DNA from: Sulfitobacter sp. THAF37
Lineage (GTDB): Bacteria; Pseudomonadota; Alphaproteobacteria; Rhodobacterales; Rhodobacteraceae
Direction of reading: 5' to 3'
DNA length: 64,000 nt
Assembly: GCF_009363555.1 (NCBI RefSeq)
Contig: NZ_CP045372.1
Coordinates: 2,987,501 to 3,051,500, forward strand
The notes beneath the pieces are model-generated. The model ran no database searches. It was not told the DNA's origin and saw only the letters and a program-made list of their open reading frames with translations. This document shows positions 3,104-42,193 of this stretch, piece by piece; the stretch's first letter is position 1; every line of letters starts with the position of its first letter. Both the position numbers and the translations under genes were made by a program.

Positions 3104-4456
3104 TCAGCTCTTCATCTCCAATCCATCATGCGGGGGACCGCCGCTGGCCAGCTTTTCCGACACCGCGTCGCGCACGCGCCGCGCCGCGCTGTTCATCAGC
3201 CGCTCACGATCCGGACCAAAGGAGATTTCGCCCAACGCGCGCTCCAGGTGGATTTCGGCGGCTTTCGCCGCGGCGTCCCGCAATCCGTCGTCAGGGTGCT
3301 GCATCAGCCCTGCCAGGGTCGCCTGAAGGGTCTGCTGCACTTCGACCACGCTGCTGCCGTCGCGGGCCAATGCGCCAAAGGCGTCCTGGATCAGGTCGGC
3401 CGGATCAAGCGGCGCGACATAAATATTGTCGAGTTTCTCGTCGCGATCCTGCGCGATCTCGTCCTTGTAATTGGTCAGGACCCGCCCGATCCGGGAAATC
3501 ACGTCAATCGCGGTGCCGGGATCGTTCACGCCCGGCGACAGCGCCTTGGAGGCGACCTCGCCCATGACGATCAGGCCAAAGCGCGGATCCTGGTCATAGG
3601 TGCGCAGATCGCCGATGTTGATGCTTTCGCGGATGCCCTTTTCGAGGGTTTCGTCGGTGTGTTCGTCGTCCACCGGATCGCCGACCCGCACAAAGCTGAG
3701 AAGCGGCTCATTGATGAAAACGAAACTGCCCACGTTGCGCGTCAGGTAAAGCTCGACGCCGTGATTTTCCGCCACGCGGTTCAGCGCCTCCGGGTAGATC
3801 AGCTGCACGTAGCCCGATTGTTCCGCGCGGATCACCTCGGCGTCGTCCGGCACACCATCCGTCAGCGCCCGCGCGCCAAGGCACGGGTTTTCAAGCCGGT
3901 CGGTGAACTGCCTGCGGGTCACCTCCTCGATCTGGCGGGTCGTGTCGATCAGACTGCCGAAGCTCTGCAAATGGAGCGTCCAACGGATCAGGTAGATCAC
4001 GATCACCGCCAGCACGATCACCGTCATGATGAACAGCACGAAGGCGCGTTCGTCCACGTAGATGCCTAGTTCGCGCATGATGATGGCGATCAGCGCATAG
4101 ACGTAAGCCCCGATGAAGACCGCCAGCGTGTTCTGCGTGGTCCGGTCCTGGATGATCAGCCGGTGGATCCGTGGGGTCCACTGGGTCGAGGACGCGCGGT
4201 AGACCGACACCATAACCGTCAGCGAAAAGGTAGTCACCGCCAACATGGCGTTGGCAATGATCGACAACAGCCGGTCCGCCGCGCTGCCGGTCAGGGAGGT
4301 CGCGATTTCGTCGGGCACGAAGCCTTCGATCAGCTGGGTCAGGCCTAGCGACAGGATCGCCATGAACCCCATCAGCACCACTCTGACCCACAATTTACGG
4401 GTATATTCCCGCGATTTGCGGATCAGGGTCGACGGGATCAGGAAATCAATATTCAT
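3104..4456 (-). CDS. DUF2254 family membrane protein
   Basis: 450 residues. Four hydrophobic segments lie in the first 160 residues (about 22-44, 62-82, 103-123, 132-156), followed by a long soluble part with the conserved stretches SPGVNDPGTAID and ASKALSPG. This is the DUF2254 pattern: an N-terminal membrane domain and a cytoplasmic C-terminal domain of unknown function. It lies between two paralogous flavoenzyme genes, 117 bases from the one at 563-2986 and divergent from the one at 4624. No regulatory or enzymatic role can be assigned. Confidence 0.8.
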   Translation of the reverse strand: MNIDFLIPSTLIRKSREYTRKLWVRVVLMGFMAILSLGLTQLIEGFVPDEIATSLTGSAADRLLSIIANAMLAVTTFSLTVMVSVYRASSTQWTPRIHRLIIQDRTTQNTLAVFIGAYVYALIAIIMRELGIYVDERAFVLFIMTVIVLAVIVIYLIRWTLHLQSFGSLIDTTRQIEEVTRRQFTDRLENPCLGARALTDGVPDDAEVIRAEQSGYVQLIYPEALNRVAENHGVELYLTRNVGSFVFINEPLLSFVRVGDPVDDEHTDETLEKGIRESINIGDLRTYDQDPRFGLIVMGEVASKALSPGVNDPGTAIDVISRIGRVLTNYKDEIAQDRDEKLDNIYVAPLDPADLIQDAFGALARDGSSVVEVQQTLQATLAGLMQHPDDGLRDAAAKAAEIHLERALGEISFGPDRERLMNSAARRVRDAVSEKLASGGPPHDGLEMKS

Positions 4457-37789: not shown

Positions 37790-39039
37790 GCACGGCACAG
37801 TCCTGGCAAGAGCTGGCCCGCGTGTTCGGACGGATCGGCCTCCTGTCCTTTGGCGGGCCTGCCGCGCAGATCGCGCTGATGCACCGCGAACTGGTCGAAG
37901 AGCGCCCCTGGCTGAGCGAGGCCGCCTTTTTGCGGGCGCTGTCGCTGTGCATGTTGCTGCCGGGGCCGGAGGCGATGCAGCTTGCCACCTACGCGGGCTG
38001 GCGGCTGCGCGGCGGTGCCGGGGGCCTGCTGGCGGGGTTCCTCTTTGTCGCGCCCGGCGCGCTGGTGATCGCCGTTCTGGCCCTGGGATACGCGTATTAC
38101 GGTGACGTTCCACTGGTGCAGGCGGCGTTTCTGGGGATCAAGGCGGCGGTGATCGTGGTGGTCTTTCAGGCGCTGCGCAAGGTGGCGGCCAAGGCGCTCG
38201 ACGGCGCGCAGGGCTGGATCCTGGCGGTGTGGTCTTTCGCCGGGATATTTGTTCTTGGCCTGCCCTTCCCGCTGATCATCCTCGGCGCCGGGCTATGGGG
38301 CATGGCACGGGGGCGGGCCGGCGGACACGACGGGGCAGACCCCCTGCCCGTCCGCGCGGCGCAATCATGGCGCACCCTGCTGGTATGGTCCGCCCTCTGG
38401 TCGGCGCCTTTGCTGGCGCTCTGGGCGCTGGGTCAGGATTTCCTGCTGCAACTGGGTCTGTTTTTCTCGAAACTGGCGGTCGTCACCTTTGGCGGGGCCT
38501 ACGCGGTCCTGGCCTACATGACCCAGACGGTGGTGCAGGATTACGGCTGGATTTCCACCGACCAGATGATCGACGCGCTGGGTCTGGCCGAAACCACGCC
38601 GGGGCCGCTGATCCTGGTGACGGAATTCGTGGCCCTGCTTGCAGGCTTTGCGCAGGCCGGGATCGGCGGCGCGCTGGCGGCGGGTCTGCTGGCGCTCTGG
38701 GTGACATTCACACCCTGCTTTTTATGGATTTTTCTGGCTGGTCCCTATCTGGAGCGGATTTCCGCCCAGCCGCGCCTTGCCGGGGCGTTGCAGGCCATCA
38801 CCGCCGCTGTTGTCGGTGTGATTGCCAACCTTTCGGTCTGGTTCGCGCTGCATGTGCTGTTTGACCGGGTCAGCCCTGCCGCGATTTTGGCGGTGCCGGT
38901 TCCCGACCCCGGCAGTTTCAACCTCTGGGCTGCGGTTCTTGTGACCGCGGGCATGGTGCTGATGCTCGGTCTGCGGTGGGGTTTCGTGCTGACGATGTGT
39001 ACCCTGACCGCCGCCGCGCTGATGATCGCCGCGGTTTGA
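37786..39039 (+). CDS. chrA: Chromate transporter (ChrA, CHR family)
   Basis: 417 residues from ATG at 37786. Two homologous halves, each beginning with the CHR pattern: GRIGLLSFGGPAAQIALMH (about 14-32) and FFSKLAVVTFGGAYAVLAYM (about 225-245), then LGLAETTPGPLI in the second half. Around ten membrane helices. Long-form CHR proteins export chromate using the proton gradient; sulfate-related functions are possible. Its TGA (39037-39039) lies inside the target duplication of the mobile element that follows, so insertion left the gene intact. Confidence 0.9.
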   Translation: MSTAQSWQELARVFGRIGLLSFGGPAAQIALMHRELVEERPWLSEAAFLRALSLCMLLPGPEAMQLATYAGWRLRGGAGGLLAGFLFVAPGALVIAVLALGYAYYGDVPLVQAAFLGIKAAVIVVVFQALRKVAAKALDGAQGWILAVWSFAGIFVLGLPFPLIILGAGLWGMARGRAGGHDGADPLPVRAAQSWRTLLVWSALWSAPLLALWALGQDFLLQLGLFFSKLAVVTFGGAYAVLAYMTQTVVQDYGWISTDQMIDALGLAETTPGPLILVTEFVALLAGFAQAGIGGALAAGLLALWVTFTPCFLWIFLAGPYLERISAQPRLAGALQAITAAVVGVIANLSVWFALHVLFDRVSPAAILAVPVPDPGSFNLWAAVLVTAGMVLMLGLRWGFVLTMCTLTAAALMIAAV

Positions 39040-39043
39040 CTCC
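39036..39043. repeat. Left target-site duplication (TTGACTCC)
   Basis: Direct 8-base repeat directly outside the left inverted repeat. The same eight bases follow the right inverted repeat at 42186-42193. Confidence 0.9.
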
Positions 39044-39064
39044 GGTAGTGGGTCAGTTTGAAAT
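39044..39064 (+). repeat. Left terminal inverted repeat
   Basis: GGTAGTGGGTCAGTTTGAAAT (21 bases by position), exact reverse complement of 42165-42185. The next bases (TAGAA) continue the similarity to the internal copy at 40656. Confidence 0.92.
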
Positions 39065-39094
39065 TAGAAAGTGAACCCTCGCGCGAGGCACCAT

Positions 39095-39123
39095 TTGCAC
39101 GGCGAGGGGATCGGTACTATCTT
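39095..39123 (+). promoter_or_regulatory. Possible promoter of the small basic protein gene
   Basis: -35 TTGCAC (39095-39100), 17-base spacer, -10 TATCTT (39118-39123). The ATG is only 7 bases after the -10, so a transcript would be leaderless. Confidence 0.35.
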
Positions 39124-39129
39124 ATAAAC

Positions 39130-39375
39130 ATGACAGACAAACCCAAGAGACCCCGTGACGCCAACCAGCTTGCCAAGTTTATCGTGGACATGGCGACGGG
39201 TGAAGAGGCTGAGTATAACCCTGATACGTCGGCCCAGCGCAAAGGTGGGTCAAAAGGTGGAAAGGCGCGGGCAAGAAATCTGACTAAAGCTGAACTCAAG
39301 GCAATTGCTCGTAAAGGTGGCGAAGCTAAATCGCAAAAAGCTCCCCCTGCTCAGGAGACGAAAGAGCGTTCATAG
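39130..39375 (+). CDS. Small basic histone H1-like protein in the mobile element
   Basis: 81 residues. N-terminal KPKRPRDANQLAKFIVDMATGEE, then a Lys/Gly/Ala-rich stretch RKGGSKGGKARARN and LTKAELKAIARKGGEA. This matches a family of short basic proteins, often labelled histone H1-like or RNA-binding, found near IS1-like transposases in Alphaproteobacteria (recognition). Probably binds nucleic acid. Its last 50 bases overlap the 3' end of the convergent ATPase gene. Confidence 0.6.
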   Translation: MTDKPKRPRDANQLAKFIVDMATGEEAEYNPDTSAQRKGGSKGGKARARNLTKAELKAIARKGGEAKSQKAPPAQETKERS

Positions 39376-40630
39376 CATCTTGAGGTATGATTTCAGCTTG
39401 AATCCCCTTCATGAGAACATAGGGCTGCATTGCTGGTTCGGAAAATCTAAATCGGAAATTCCTGACTGATCCTTTTTGTTGAAGAATCTTACCCCTTTTA
39501 TCGGAAGCAAAATCTGTCAGATTGCCGTTAAAGTACTCAACCGTCCGTTTTTCTCCGATAATACCGCTGAATGGCTGTTCTACATCTTTGGGCATAAACC
39601 AGCCACTTGCGTCTGTCTTAGTTAAAGCACATGCAGTCAGAAGCTGGCGAAACGTAGCTCTAGCCTGGTTACTGTTCGTGGCCGCTTCATAGGCACTTTT
39701 CAGTGTGTATTGAGAACTCTCAATCGCCGCCAATATGCCGTTGTCTATGTCCACCTCAGCTATTTTCAAACTACGTCGTTCAATTGCGGAATAAACGGAA
39801 GCCCGCCCCAATGCATGGGCGAAAGAAGGCAGTCCCTTCGAAAGCCCTGTGATCTTCCATTTTGCATCCCCTTCAAGCGACATACCAAGTTGCTTAACTC
39901 TTTGACTTAGCAGCAACTGAATTTCCTCTGTTTTCATACGAGGCATCAAAACTTCTTCGGAACATCGTATGATAGAGCCATGCCCTCGCACCAGTTCATC
40001 GACGTTATCTCCAACTCCTACAACCACAATGGTCGCAGGTGTACCTTCGTCGGAAACAGCCTTTACAGTCTCTGACATAAGGCGAGCTGCTTCATCATCT
40101 TTAAGTTGCTGGAACTCATCAATAACGATGATCGGAATCACGGACTCCCCAAAATAGTTCAGTTCCCTCACAACATCCGAGGGTGTTATGTTGTCGGGGT
40201 AAAGGTCCGCAACGTTGTACTCTTGATAAATGCCGTCTCTGTGCGCTTGAAACTTAATGCTTCTAAAAACATTCTCCCAGATTGAAGTAAAAGTGTCAGT
40301 ACTAACAACTGCTTTCCGTACGTATTGCACGCTCTTCAATCCCCTAGGAACAAAGTATTGCAATAGCTTAGCAATTGACGTTTTCCCTACTCCGGGTTCG
40401 CCAAACAAAATCGCATGACGCCCACGCTCCGCCACGGCCTCTACCAGCTTATCTATCTGAGCCGACCGCCCCGCGAAAAGCTCAGTGGTTGTCACGGGGC
40501 TTGATGGCGTAAAAAGATCCGCAGCTAAGAATTTCAATGTTCGCCAATCATCTTCTGTTCTACTAACCACTAGAGCTAATCCCTGCCTTACTATCCTTAG
40601 TCTGGCTTTTACTAAGGATAGTAGTCGCAT
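39326..40630 (-). CDS. AAA+ ATPase carried by the mobile element
   Basis: 434 residues from ATG 40630, or 414 from GTG 40570. Walker A GEPGVGKTS (77-85), Walker B IIVIDEFQQ (167-175), sensor 1-like TIVVVGVGDN (about 202-211), then a helical lid and a winged-helix-like C-terminus (about 320-400). Overall closest to Orc1/Cdc6- or TniB-like ATPases by layout; no HNH, TIR or nuclease domain. GC is clearly lower than neighbours, which marks it as foreign. A 13-base palindrome spans its first codons, favouring the GTG start. Role unknown: target selection, immunity or defence are all possible. Confidence 0.75.
   Translation of the reverse strand: MRLLSLVKARLRIVRQGLALVVSRTEDDWRTLKFLAADLFTPSSPVTTTELFAGRSAQIDKLVEAVAERGRHAILFGEPGVGKTSIAKLLQYFVPRGLKSVQYVRKAVVSTDTFTSIWENVFRSIKFQAHRDGIYQEYNVADLYPDNITPSDVVRELNYFGESVIPIIVIDEFQQLKDDEAARLMSETVKAVSDEGTPATIVVVGVGDNVDELVRGHGSIIRCSEEVLMPRMKTEEIQLLLSQRVKQLGMSLEGDAKWKITGLSKGLPSFAHALGRASVYSAIERRSLKIAEVDIDNGILAAIESSQYTLKSAYEAATNSNQARATFRQLLTACALTKTDASGWFMPKDVEQPFSGIIGEKRTVEYFNGNLTDFASDKRGKILQQKGSVRNFRFRFSEPAMQPYVLMKGIQAEIIPQDAMNALSSPEQGELFAI
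40589..40623. promoter_or_regulatory. 13-base inverted repeat at the start of the ATPase gene
   Basis: TACTATCCTTAGT (40589-40601) and ACTAAGGATAGTA (40611-40623) are exact reverse complements, 9 bases apart. If the ATPase starts at GTG 40570 this lies in its leader and could be an operator or an RNA hairpin. Confidence 0.55.
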
Positions 40631-40646
40631 TCAAGGTATCTTTTTC

Positions 40647-40675
40647 TTGACTGTCGGTCAGTTTGAATTTAGATT
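40647..40675 (+). promoter_or_regulatory. Possible transposase promoter
   Basis: -35 TTGACT (40647-40652), 17-base spacer, -10 TAGATT (40670-40675). The internal terminal-repeat copy lies within it. The transposase ATG follows at 40682 after GGAGG that is too close to act as a normal Shine-Dalgarno. Confidence 0.4.
40656..40673 (+). repeat. Internal copy of the element's left end
   Basis: GGTCAGTTTGAATTTAGA matches 39051-39068 (GGTCAGTTTGAAATTAGA) at 17 of 18 positions and in the same orientation. With the right end it would delimit a minimal 1.5-kb element holding only transposase and toxin. Confidence 0.75.
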
Positions 40676-40681
40676 GGAGGC

Positions 40682-41569
40682 ATGAGAAAACTTGACACCA
40701 AATCCCGCGCCCTGATCCTCCGCCTTCTCGTGGAGGGCAACTCTATCCGCGCCACAGCACGCATTGCTGACGTGTCCAAGAACACCGTCACAAAGCTGCT
40801 TGAGGATGCTGGCAAGGCATGTGCGGCCTACCACGACGCAAACGTACGCGGCGTAGAGGCAAGCCATGTGCAGGCTGACGAGATATGGGCTTTCTGCTAT
40901 GCTAAAGAACGCAATGTGAAGGACGCTAAAGCGGCACCTGCGGACGCTGGCGATATCTGGACGTGGACCGCGATGGATCGCGATAGCAAGTTGATGATCT
41001 CCTACACCGTGGGCGACCGTTCGCAGGCGACAGCGCGTGAGTTCATGTTCGATCTGGCGGGGCGTCTTGCTGGTCGCATCCAACTGACCACGGATGGCCA
41101 CGGTGGCTACCTCAAGGCGGTTACAGATGCATTCTCCGGCGATGTAGACTACGCCATGCTGATCAAGCAGTACGGCGACCCCACAGGCCAGAAGGGCCAC
41201 GAGCGCAAGTATTCGCCCGCCGAATGCACTGGTGCGAAGAAAGAGGCGATCTTTGGTAAGCCCGACATGGATCAGGTCGGCACCAGCCACATTGAGCGCC
41301 AGAACCTGACAATGCGGATGGGAATGCGCCGATTTACGCGCCTAACCAACGCTTTCAGCAAGAAGGCAGAAAACCACGCATACGCGGTTGCGCTACACTT
41401 CATGCACTACAACTATTGCCGTATCCACAAGACGCTGCGGATCACGCCAGCGATGGCCGCAAACCTTGTCGCATCGCCTTGGACCGTTGACGAAATTGTC
41501 GCACTGGTTGAAAAGGAAGAGGAAGCAAAGCCAAAGACGCGCGGTCCTTACAAAAAGAAAGCGGTTTGA
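40682..41569 (+). CDS. IS1-like DDE transposase
   Basis: 295 residues. N-terminal helix-turn-helix (about 10-42; EGNSIRATARIADVSKNTV), then catalytic acids D66 in VQADEIWAF, D138 in LTTDGHGGY and E205 in SHIERQNLTMR, with the family sequence RRFTRLTNAFSKK and HFMHYNYCRIHKTL. The single-frame arrangement is typical of the alphaproteobacterial IS1-like group, unlike enteric IS1 with its frameshift. All three acids are intact, so it is probably active. Confidence 0.9.
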   Translation: MRKLDTKSRALILRLLVEGNSIRATARIADVSKNTVTKLLEDAGKACAAYHDANVRGVEASHVQADEIWAFCYAKERNVKDAKAAPADAGDIWTWTAMDRDSKLMISYTVGDRSQATAREFMFDLAGRLAGRIQLTTDGHGGYLKAVTDAFSGDVDYAMLIKQYGDPTGQKGHERKYSPAECTGAKKEAIFGKPDMDQVGTSHIERQNLTMRMGMRRFTRLTNAFSKKAENHAYAVALHFMHYNYCRIHKTLRITPAMAANLVASPWTVDEIVALVEKEEEAKPKTRGPYKKKAV

Positions 41570-41968
41570 TTGCCCATTAATTTCCATCCCCGCGCTGGTC
41601 AGATTCTAATGTGTGACTTCAAAGGGTTCGTAGAACCCGAAATGGTGAAAGTCAGACCGGTGATGGTGATTTCCCCGAAATTGCCCTATCGATCTGAGAT
41701 CGCTGCCATTGTGCCTATCAGCCTGAGCGCGCCACGACGTGATCTCCCCTATGTGGTAAAGCTGTCCAAAAACTATCACCCAAAAGAGAGTGACAACCTC
41801 CCTTGCTGGGCTAAGTGCGACTTGGTCATGAATATCGGACTATATCGCCTTGAAGGCTTCAAGATTGGACGCCGCCAGTGGGCTACACCACAAGCCACTC
41901 CGGAGGATTTACACGCCGTTAGGAGTGCTGTGCTACACGGGTTGGGTGTTCACAATTTCGGGCAGTAG
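41570..41968 (+). CDS. PemK/MazF-like toxin in the mobile element
   Basis: 132 residues starting at TTG 41570, directly after the transposase stop, so probably translated by termination-reinitiation. GQILMCDFKGF, then VRPVMVISPK and AAIVPISLSAP follow the PemK/MazF beta-barrel pattern (arginine and proline of the RPV/A motif). MazF enzymes cut mRNA at short sequences. No antitoxin gene is seen beside it. The assignment is by motif only; a non-toxin PemK-fold protein is possible. Confidence 0.65.
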   Translation: MPINFHPRAGQILMCDFKGFVEPEMVKVRPVMVISPKLPYRSEIAAIVPISLSAPRRDLPYVVKLSKNYHPKESDNLPCWAKCDLVMNIGLYRLEGFKIGRRQWATPQATPEDLHAVRSAVLHGLGVHNFGQ

Positions 41969-42115
41969 CCACTTCTGACTTGATTTGGTGGCAGGTGGTC
42001 ACTAGTTAATGAGATGTATCCCGTTTATCGGGCTTTAAGACCTAGATCACTAGGCAGGCTGATCACTGGGCGATGACAAGCCTCGATTAGCCTAGATATT
42101 GTCAAAGTCCTTGAA

Positions 42116-42137
42116 GGCCCCGCTTCGGCGGGGTCTT
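42116..42137 (+). terminator. Terminator inside the right end of the mobile element
   Basis: Stem CCCCGC/GCGGGG around a TTCG tetraloop (42118-42133), with outer G-T and G-C pairs and then TCTTCTT. It would stop transcription from the transposase-toxin operon before the right repeat. Confidence 0.7.
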
Positions 42138-42164
42138 CTTGCATCTGGCCCATCAAAATAAGAT

Positions 42165-42185
42165 ATTTCAAACTGACCCACTACC
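42165..42185 (-). repeat. Right terminal inverted repeat
   Basis: Exact reverse complement of 39044-39064. Confidence 0.92.
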
Positions 42186-42193
42186 TTGACTCC
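42186..42193. repeat. Right target-site duplication (TTGACTCC)
   Basis: Same eight bases as 39036-39043, directly outside the right inverted repeat. Confidence 0.9.

Follow-up and report, generated by a model that had tools for sequence, protein, structure and literature searches.

Insertion sequences (ISs) of the IS1 family have ends of the form GGnnnTG and make target duplications of 8-9 bp, and classical members carry overlapping insA and insB frames that are joined by a frameshift. Defence genes travel in phages, satellites, plasmids and islands. In a 64,000-nucleotide stretch of the genome of Sulfitobacter sp. THAF37 (contig NZ_CP045372.1, positions 2,987,501 to 3,051,500; hereafter the window) we analysed a 3142-bp IS1-like element with four genes (positions 39044-42185), which shares features with several described systems. 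Transporter ISs (tIS) are IS derivatives with passenger genes according to a portion of PMC9330008, and a section of Lima-Mendez et al. (2020, PMC7157771) describes Tn3-family transposons that hold toxin-antitoxin (TA) pairs in their transposition module. PD-lambda-2 and PD-T4-5 are presented as anti-phage systems in part of a 2022 study (PMC9519451), and excerpts of another (PMC9122126, 2022) describe defence hotspots of P2 and P4 phages.

The window element is one of a large family, found mainly in alphaproteobacteria, in which the left end, a small basic protein encoded by open reading frame (ORF) 1, the transposase and the right end form a fixed core. We consider it likely that this compact IS1-like unit transposon, with a fixed core, two slots and swappable, largely defence-type cargo, serves as a shuttle for defence genes, because about half of its members (58 of 117 complete elements) carry at least one recurrent cluster of TA-like, Abi-like, NYN or DNA-methylase cargo. 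An IS1-type DDE transposase would act on the 21-bp ends and insert the whole 3.1 kb with an 8-bp duplication, and the two slots would exchange their cargo while the core stays fixed.

Compared with the described systems, these elements resemble the IS1 family in their PF03400 DDE transposase, in the window end GGTAGTG, which fits GGnnnTG, and in duplications of 8-9 bp. They differ in having a single-ORF transposase that scores below the NCBIfam IS1 cut-off and a near-universal ORF1, and they are mostly 2-4 kb long with cargo (3142 bp in the window), against the 0.7-1.6 kb that the original prediction gave for the IS1 family. With tIS, as partly described in the source cited above, the window element shares one transposase, IS-type ends and passengers moved as a unit. 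What sets the family apart from tIS is another conserved gene in its core, its pair of slots and a cargo pool that recurs and is largely of defence type; an additional predicted ORF of at least 100 amino acids (aa) is present in 113/117 elements and none of the 117 is shorter than 1.3 kb, although shorter, transposase-less or decayed family members exist too (L273-L275). The exchangeable TA-type genes that part of the Tn3 report places inside the transposition module have a parallel here, but the transposase is unrelated and the cargo is wider than TA pairs; no resolvase family was listed for the cargo that was scanned. The fullest cargo sets show the order HigB, HigA-ImmA and third gene that the excerpted account of PD-lambda-2 gives, the HigA-ImmA protein matches PD-Lambda-2_B and Abi-like cargo matches PD-T4-5. 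In contrast to PD-lambda-2, the two HigB and four third-gene proteins that were scanned match no PD-lambda-2 model of PADLOC, and the genes ride a transposon. In combining a mobile, unchanging core with an exchangeable slot for defence genes, the family also recalls the P2/P4 hotspots, as far as the excerpts describe them, and a distant relative of the window ATPase lies in a P2-like interval; the vehicle here is a 3-kb transposon and not a phage.

The window element is bounded by inverted repeats of 21 nt that are 100% complementary on repeat comparison (left, GGTAGTGGGTCAGTTTGAAAT, 39044-39064, plus strand; right, 42165-42185, minus strand). Directly outside both ends stands an 8-bp target duplication, TTGACTCC, with its left copy at 39036-39043, where a congener (G007) is continuous across the joined flanks, and its right copy at 42186-42193, read from the flank letters. 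The basic 81-aa protein ORF1 (KRPRDANQLAKFIVDMATGE ... KGGSKGGKARA) is encoded at 39130-39375 on the plus strand and overlaps tail to tail, by 50 bases, with the ATPase gene of slot 1 (39326-40630, minus strand; 434 aa as listed). The transposase gene (40682-41569, plus strand) and the gene for a 132-aa PemK/MazF-like protein in slot 2 (41570-41968, plus strand) follow. Perfect 21-bp inverted repeats, an 8-bp duplication and an intact DDE transposase, all named in the original prediction, were confirmed by checks of the arms, the ORF and PF03400. That prediction also counted three extra genes. Two of them, for the ATPase and the PemK-like protein, are cargo as proposed, while the basic protein proved to belong to the transposon core, because ORF1 is present in 116/117 elements.

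A second copy of the element is found in the same genome, with 100% identity over all 3142 bases and its own 8-bp duplication, GCGACCCC. When up to 3 mismatches were allowed, the end sequence occurred only 4 times in the genome, each time as an end of one of the two copies, and a reversed control pattern did not occur. The search for a second full gene set between matching ends, proposed with the original prediction, thus returned an identical copy, which favours the element. The proposed comparison with empty sites was made in 40 genomes with a query of 500 bases, in which both window flanks were joined across one copy of the duplication. Matches were obtained in 24/40 genomes, the own genome included, and in eleven other congeners the query matched near full length at 68-74% identity. 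Congener G007 has an empty site: a single continuous match covers query bases 1-500 at 84% identity, gapless at the insertion point and with one single-base gap further right, so the ends mark the junctions. The window element is therefore genuine: an IS1-like unit transposon that carries cargo and has moved recently, as shown by its two identical copies, the different duplications around them and the empty site.

Congener G031 has a sister element whose 21-bp ends are identical to those of the window element and which has ORF1 and a duplication of its own, CGGGCGAT. Its transposase shares 92% protein identity with that of the window. The cargo is wholly unlike, consisting of proteins of 227, 160 and 389 aa; the PemK gene is absent from this element. 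The 227-aa protein matches PD-T4-5 (1.3e-13) and AbiD (1.3e-4), and the 389-aa protein matches PD-Lambda-2_B (4.6e-40).

To survey the family, we took the best 80 of 569 confirmed genome loci and the best 80 of 141 viral-contig loci from searches with a transposase alignment and added four plasmid loci, for 164 loci in total. An element was called complete if the transposase locus was flanked by 20-bp ends that nearly match and by a duplication of 8 or 9 bp without mismatch. This was the case for 117/164 loci, from which L055 and L130 (another repeat type) were dropped before counting; the remaining 115 together with the window and G031 elements make up the 117 complete elements counted throughout. 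The other 49 of the 164 loci lie on cut contigs or have no recognisable repeat pair. Duplicate elements were retained in the counts (L075/L076, two copies in one genome; L140/L141; L162/L163; L187/L188). The complete elements measure 1323-5556 bp with a median of 3123 bp, and the duplication was 8 bp long in 116 and 9 bp long in 2 of the 118 called. At the left end, G1 and T6 were found in 117/117 and G2 and G7 in 116 elements each, with positions 1, 6, 14 and 16 invariant in 117/117.

In an even sample of the class (289 genomes, own genome included), the transposase was found in 29/289 genomes, partial copies included, and ORF1 in 27/289. Boundaries were sought around 20 of the 33 transposase hits, namely the long ones minus the own two and G098. 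Fifteen of these 20 sit in complete elements of 2610-4013 bp, at least three of which (L249, L250, L258) were already among the first 117, and ORF1 lies upstream on the same strand at 16/20. A phylum sample had ORF1 in 13/398 genomes (own included), 13/13 from the class of the window genome. Among the transposase matches listed, a few named relatives lie outside the alphaproteobacteria, e.g. in Oxalobacter and Dechloromonas. In the member from Oxalobacter formigenes (L111:3784-7897), ends of a variant sequence, GGTAGTGGTCTAGTTTGAAAT, enclose a type IIG restriction-methylation protein and one more protein. A whole class of IS1-like transposons with cargo exists, as put forward in the original prediction, but it is defined by its ends, transposase and ORF1 with swappable cargo and not by an ATPase and a toxin. 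No description of the family came up in literature searches aimed at it or in those on phage hotspots, which covered openly licensed papers and not ISfinder, TnPedia or bioRxiv. ISfinder lists some long IS1-family members, so IS1-like elements with passengers may be known as such.

The window transposase gene is open throughout and encodes a single ORF of 295 aa and not two frames. It matches PF03400 (9.2e-10, 39.4 bits against a cut-off of 24.1), while the NCBIfam IS1 transposase equivalog NF033558 reached 69.8 bits, under its cut-off of 100, and a match to HTH_7 was also under cut-off. Residues D66, D138 and E205 are identical in 117/117 aligned members. A stop in mid-gene was found in only 1/117 (L167); those in L132 and L193 are placed at the extreme end of the gene.

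ORF1 was searched with a hidden Markov model (HMM) rebuilt from its own hits in three rounds. It matched in 116/117 elements, on the plus strand in 114 and on the minus strand in 2 (L139, L192); none was found in L155. In 108 of the 116, ORF1 starts within 700 bp of the left end. Nine further ORF1 loci drawn from the phylum sample were examined starting from ORF1 itself: the left end precedes ORF1 in 9/9, and the transposase is present in 5/9, one of them a fragment (L273). Elements L274 and L275 lack a transposase and are shorter than 0.9 kb, and L272 and L276 have kept the left end alone. The ORF1 family is large, with at least 7997 candidates at E 0.001 or better (7997/7997 scored). The window ORF1 has no Pfam family above cut-off, 0/120 listed relatives have a Pfam domain, and comparison of its sequence with the PDB gave no match at E 5 or better. 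Its predicted structure (pLDDT 76, pTM 0.37) has three helices and gave no usable fold match. ORF1 probably binds DNA as an accessory, either of transposition or of the left end. A large family that lacks a domain name gains a first testable role from its transposon context.

Two of the ORF1 loci deserve separate mention. In reverse-complement coordinates, L274:2990-3869 and L275:2877-3693 consist of two ends and ORF1 only and look like non-autonomous derivatives that retain ORF1. L275 has the duplication TGCGCCCG and a poor right arm (5 mismatches), and the duplications of L274 differ at one base. Extra direct end-like copies stand just inside the right end of L274 (~3787-3822, same orientation), as if the end had been duplicated.

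Cargo occupies two positions. In slot 1, between ORF1 and the transposase, the largest ORF of at least 100 aa is on the minus strand in 74 elements and on the plus strand in 37. Slot 2, behind the transposase, is used in 39 elements; in 58/117 the right end comes within 60 bp of the aligned transposase. Cargo clusters were named from one scanned representative each. By number of elements the clusters are the HigA-ImmA type (40), its 160-aa neighbour, which has no family (24), P63C-domain proteins (10), HigB (9; by Pfam for one member), the window's ATPase (8), a ClpP/SDH protease (6), NYN (5), SocA/Panacea (4), PemK (4) and a DNA methylase (4), of which the scanned one has an HNH domain. For 20 of the first 30 clusters, not counting the ATPase, a single representative was compared with Pfam. 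Rarer cargo was covered by 76 representatives of at least 110 aa from clusters numbered 30 or higher; Pfam identified a type IIG enzyme, a BglII-type endonuclease, MT-A70, HipA-like and AAA-15/21 proteins, and PADLOC identified RmrT, PDC-S13, HEC-04 and AriA. Four of five scanned proteins of the HigA-ImmA cluster match PD-Lambda-2_B (7e-39 to 2.4e-43, up to 147 bits) and the fifth matches RmrA (3e-191); cluster 0, formed by single linkage, mixes PD-lambda-2-like and RmrA-like proteins. The Abi-like cargo matches PD-T4-5 at 3.6e-14 and 1.3e-13. HigB, HigA-ImmA and the third gene are all present in 7/117 elements. Beyond the 58/117 elements with a recurrent cluster of the types given above, much of the cargo carries no assignment.

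For the most part, cargo and core change independently of each other. On a transposase tree of the 'quick' type, in which 34/110 inner branches were open, we compared the changes in each cargo with those after label shuffles (n=500). The ATPase showed 7 changes for 8 carriers (shuffled mean 7.9; 63/500 shuffles as low or lower), HigB 8 changes for 9 carriers (8.8; 110/500) and P63C 9 changes for 10 carriers (9.8; 109/500). HigA-ImmA was slightly clustered (29 changes against a shuffled mean of 33.5; 19/500), as was NYN (15/500), and the 4 carriers of PemK were too few for a signal. Between L161 and L167, identity is 70.5% for the ATPases and 62.6% for the transposases; between L073 and L100 it is 39.3% and 77.2%, respectively.

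The PemK/MazF-like protein of slot 2 matches PF02452 (8.1e-11, 42.5 bits against a cut-off of 23.1). Its gene opens with a TTG that abuts the TGA stop of the transposase gene. In 4/4 carriers the PemK start is at -1 or 0 from the transposase stop, in L081 if translation begins at an in-frame Met that lies 30 codons into the ORF as listed, whereas most other plus-strand ORFs in slot 2 start at least 48 bases away. The simplest reading of the TGA/TTG junction is that translation of the PemK-like RNase would be coupled to that of the transposase. Behind this gene, a G+C-rich hairpin followed by a T-rich stretch (42118-42133, plus strand; picked by eye, unscored) resembles a terminator.

Stabilisation of the element by the toxin, suggested in the original prediction, found no support: PemK is present in 4/117 elements, no recognisable antitoxin stands next to it, and its gene abuts that of the transposase. 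A first alternative is that the cargo serves addiction and not defence, with toxin-type genes that kill or arrest cells losing the element. The PemK, HigB, SocA and HigA-type genes do come from TA families, and TA pairs are known within the Tn3 transposition module, as stated in part of PMC7157771. However, only a 48-aa antisense ORF fills the space up to the right end beside the window PemK, and no antitoxin-like gene was seen there among ORFs down to the searched minimum of 45 aa. Many cargo sets, moreover, consist of restriction, Abi, protease or NYN genes, and the three-gene HigB/HigA-ImmA type resembles PD-lambda-2, which part of PMC9519451 shows to be anti-phage. We therefore regard addiction as a rather unlikely account of the cargo, although addiction and defence are not mutually exclusive.

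A second alternative concerns the ATPase. The original prediction suggested that it could choose targets or block nearby insertions, and the element would then be an ATPase-dependent IS1-like transposon with a TniB/MuB/IstB/TnsC-like regulator giving target choice or immunity. The protein is an AAA ATPase of Cdc6/Orc1-STAND type, with nSTAND1, AAA_16, AAA_22 and AAA above the Pfam cut-off; its true start is probably further in than listed, as relatives begin near TEDDW. Its fold alone does not decide the matter; the reading as a TniB/MuB-like partner was rejected because of its distribution. The ATPase is absent from 109/117 complete elements, and since it is exchangeable cargo, present in 8/117, it is unlikely to be a TniB/MuB-type targeting factor. 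Its scores are under the cut-offs for TniB (14.5 bits against 22.4) and for the IS21-type (IstB) helper (12.8 against 200), its identity does not track that of the transposase in the two pairs given above, and among 44 relatives in viral contigs 39 have no family transposase within the flanks retrieved, some of them truncated where the contig stops. Regulation by the ATPase is thus a very unlikely explanation of the element, and this part of the original prediction was not borne out.

We prefer to see the ATPase as cargo, and the chances are about even that it is a stand-alone, single-gene anti-phage defence candidate, because its phage relatives occupy two known defence-hotspot positions. Relatives lie in the variable region of a cluster N phage, and a distant one occupies the interval that separates replication from portal genes in a P2-like record. 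In Mycobacterium phage Kevin1 (L024:3590-5245) the relative gp30 directly follows a gene whose annotation reads HicB-like antitoxin (gp31), maybe its partner there.

A composite or capture artefact, in which random chromosomal neighbours were caught between two ends, is highly improbable: cargo that differs between close relatives and has a median G+C (0.523) unlike that of the transposase (0.583) and flanks (0.613) would fit it, but 144/238 cargo ORFs of at least 100 aa from all 117 elements have a relative in another element, against 1/558 flank ORFs (control loci L034-L113 only; 56/558 have a relative in another flank), the whole unit occurs twice in the window genome, and the slots are fixed around ORF1 and the transposase.

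If the elements are indeed shuttles for defence genes, seemingly with little other function, they would be among the smallest vehicles for defence-gene traffic, with a transposase in about a tenth of the sampled class genomes. They would also offer a handle for discovery, as a gene of no known function between such ends, beside ORF1, becomes a defence or toxin candidate. A bolder version of this proposal, possible but doubtful as a whole, is that an undescribed and abundant defence-shuttling family circulates among alphaproteobacteria and phages, with ORF1 as a required cofactor, the ATPase as a new single-gene defence and the PemK coupling tying transposition bursts to growth arrest.

Upstream of the transposase we noted a putative promoter, TTGACT-17-TAGATT (40647-40675, plus strand), with hexamers picked by eye. 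Its spacer overlaps an end-like site (40653-40673) that is 90% like the left end. In 81/117 elements the 70 bp before the transposase contain the motif CTTGAC, against 2.9% of control stretches. End-like sites (up to 2/12 mismatches in the 150 bp before the transposase) were found in 30/117 elements, 12 direct and 19 inverted, where shuffles gave expectations of ~0.4 and 0.65. Such a site could be a relic of a smaller IS. The reading as an operator is favoured, because the end-like site overlaps promoter-like sequence in both the window and G031. In at least a subset of elements the transposase probably limits its own expression by binding the end-like site in its own promoter, as the sequence arrangement suggests. 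In 26/117 elements a palindrome, TGCTTGAC-N(2-6)-AAGCA, lies over the -35 of the transposase promoter and looks like an operator that is unlike the end-like site.

A perfect inverted repeat of 20 bp, ACTCGACAGAATTTTTTCGT, bordered on each side by the 8-bp sequence AGTGCACT, encloses ~10 kb around the transposase at L055:1448-11531 and is not of the family type. In Brevundimonas phage vB_BpoS-Gurke, which has a 321-kb genome, an unannotated relative of the transposase is present at ON529850.1:174791-175666, with 32% identity and 94% covered.

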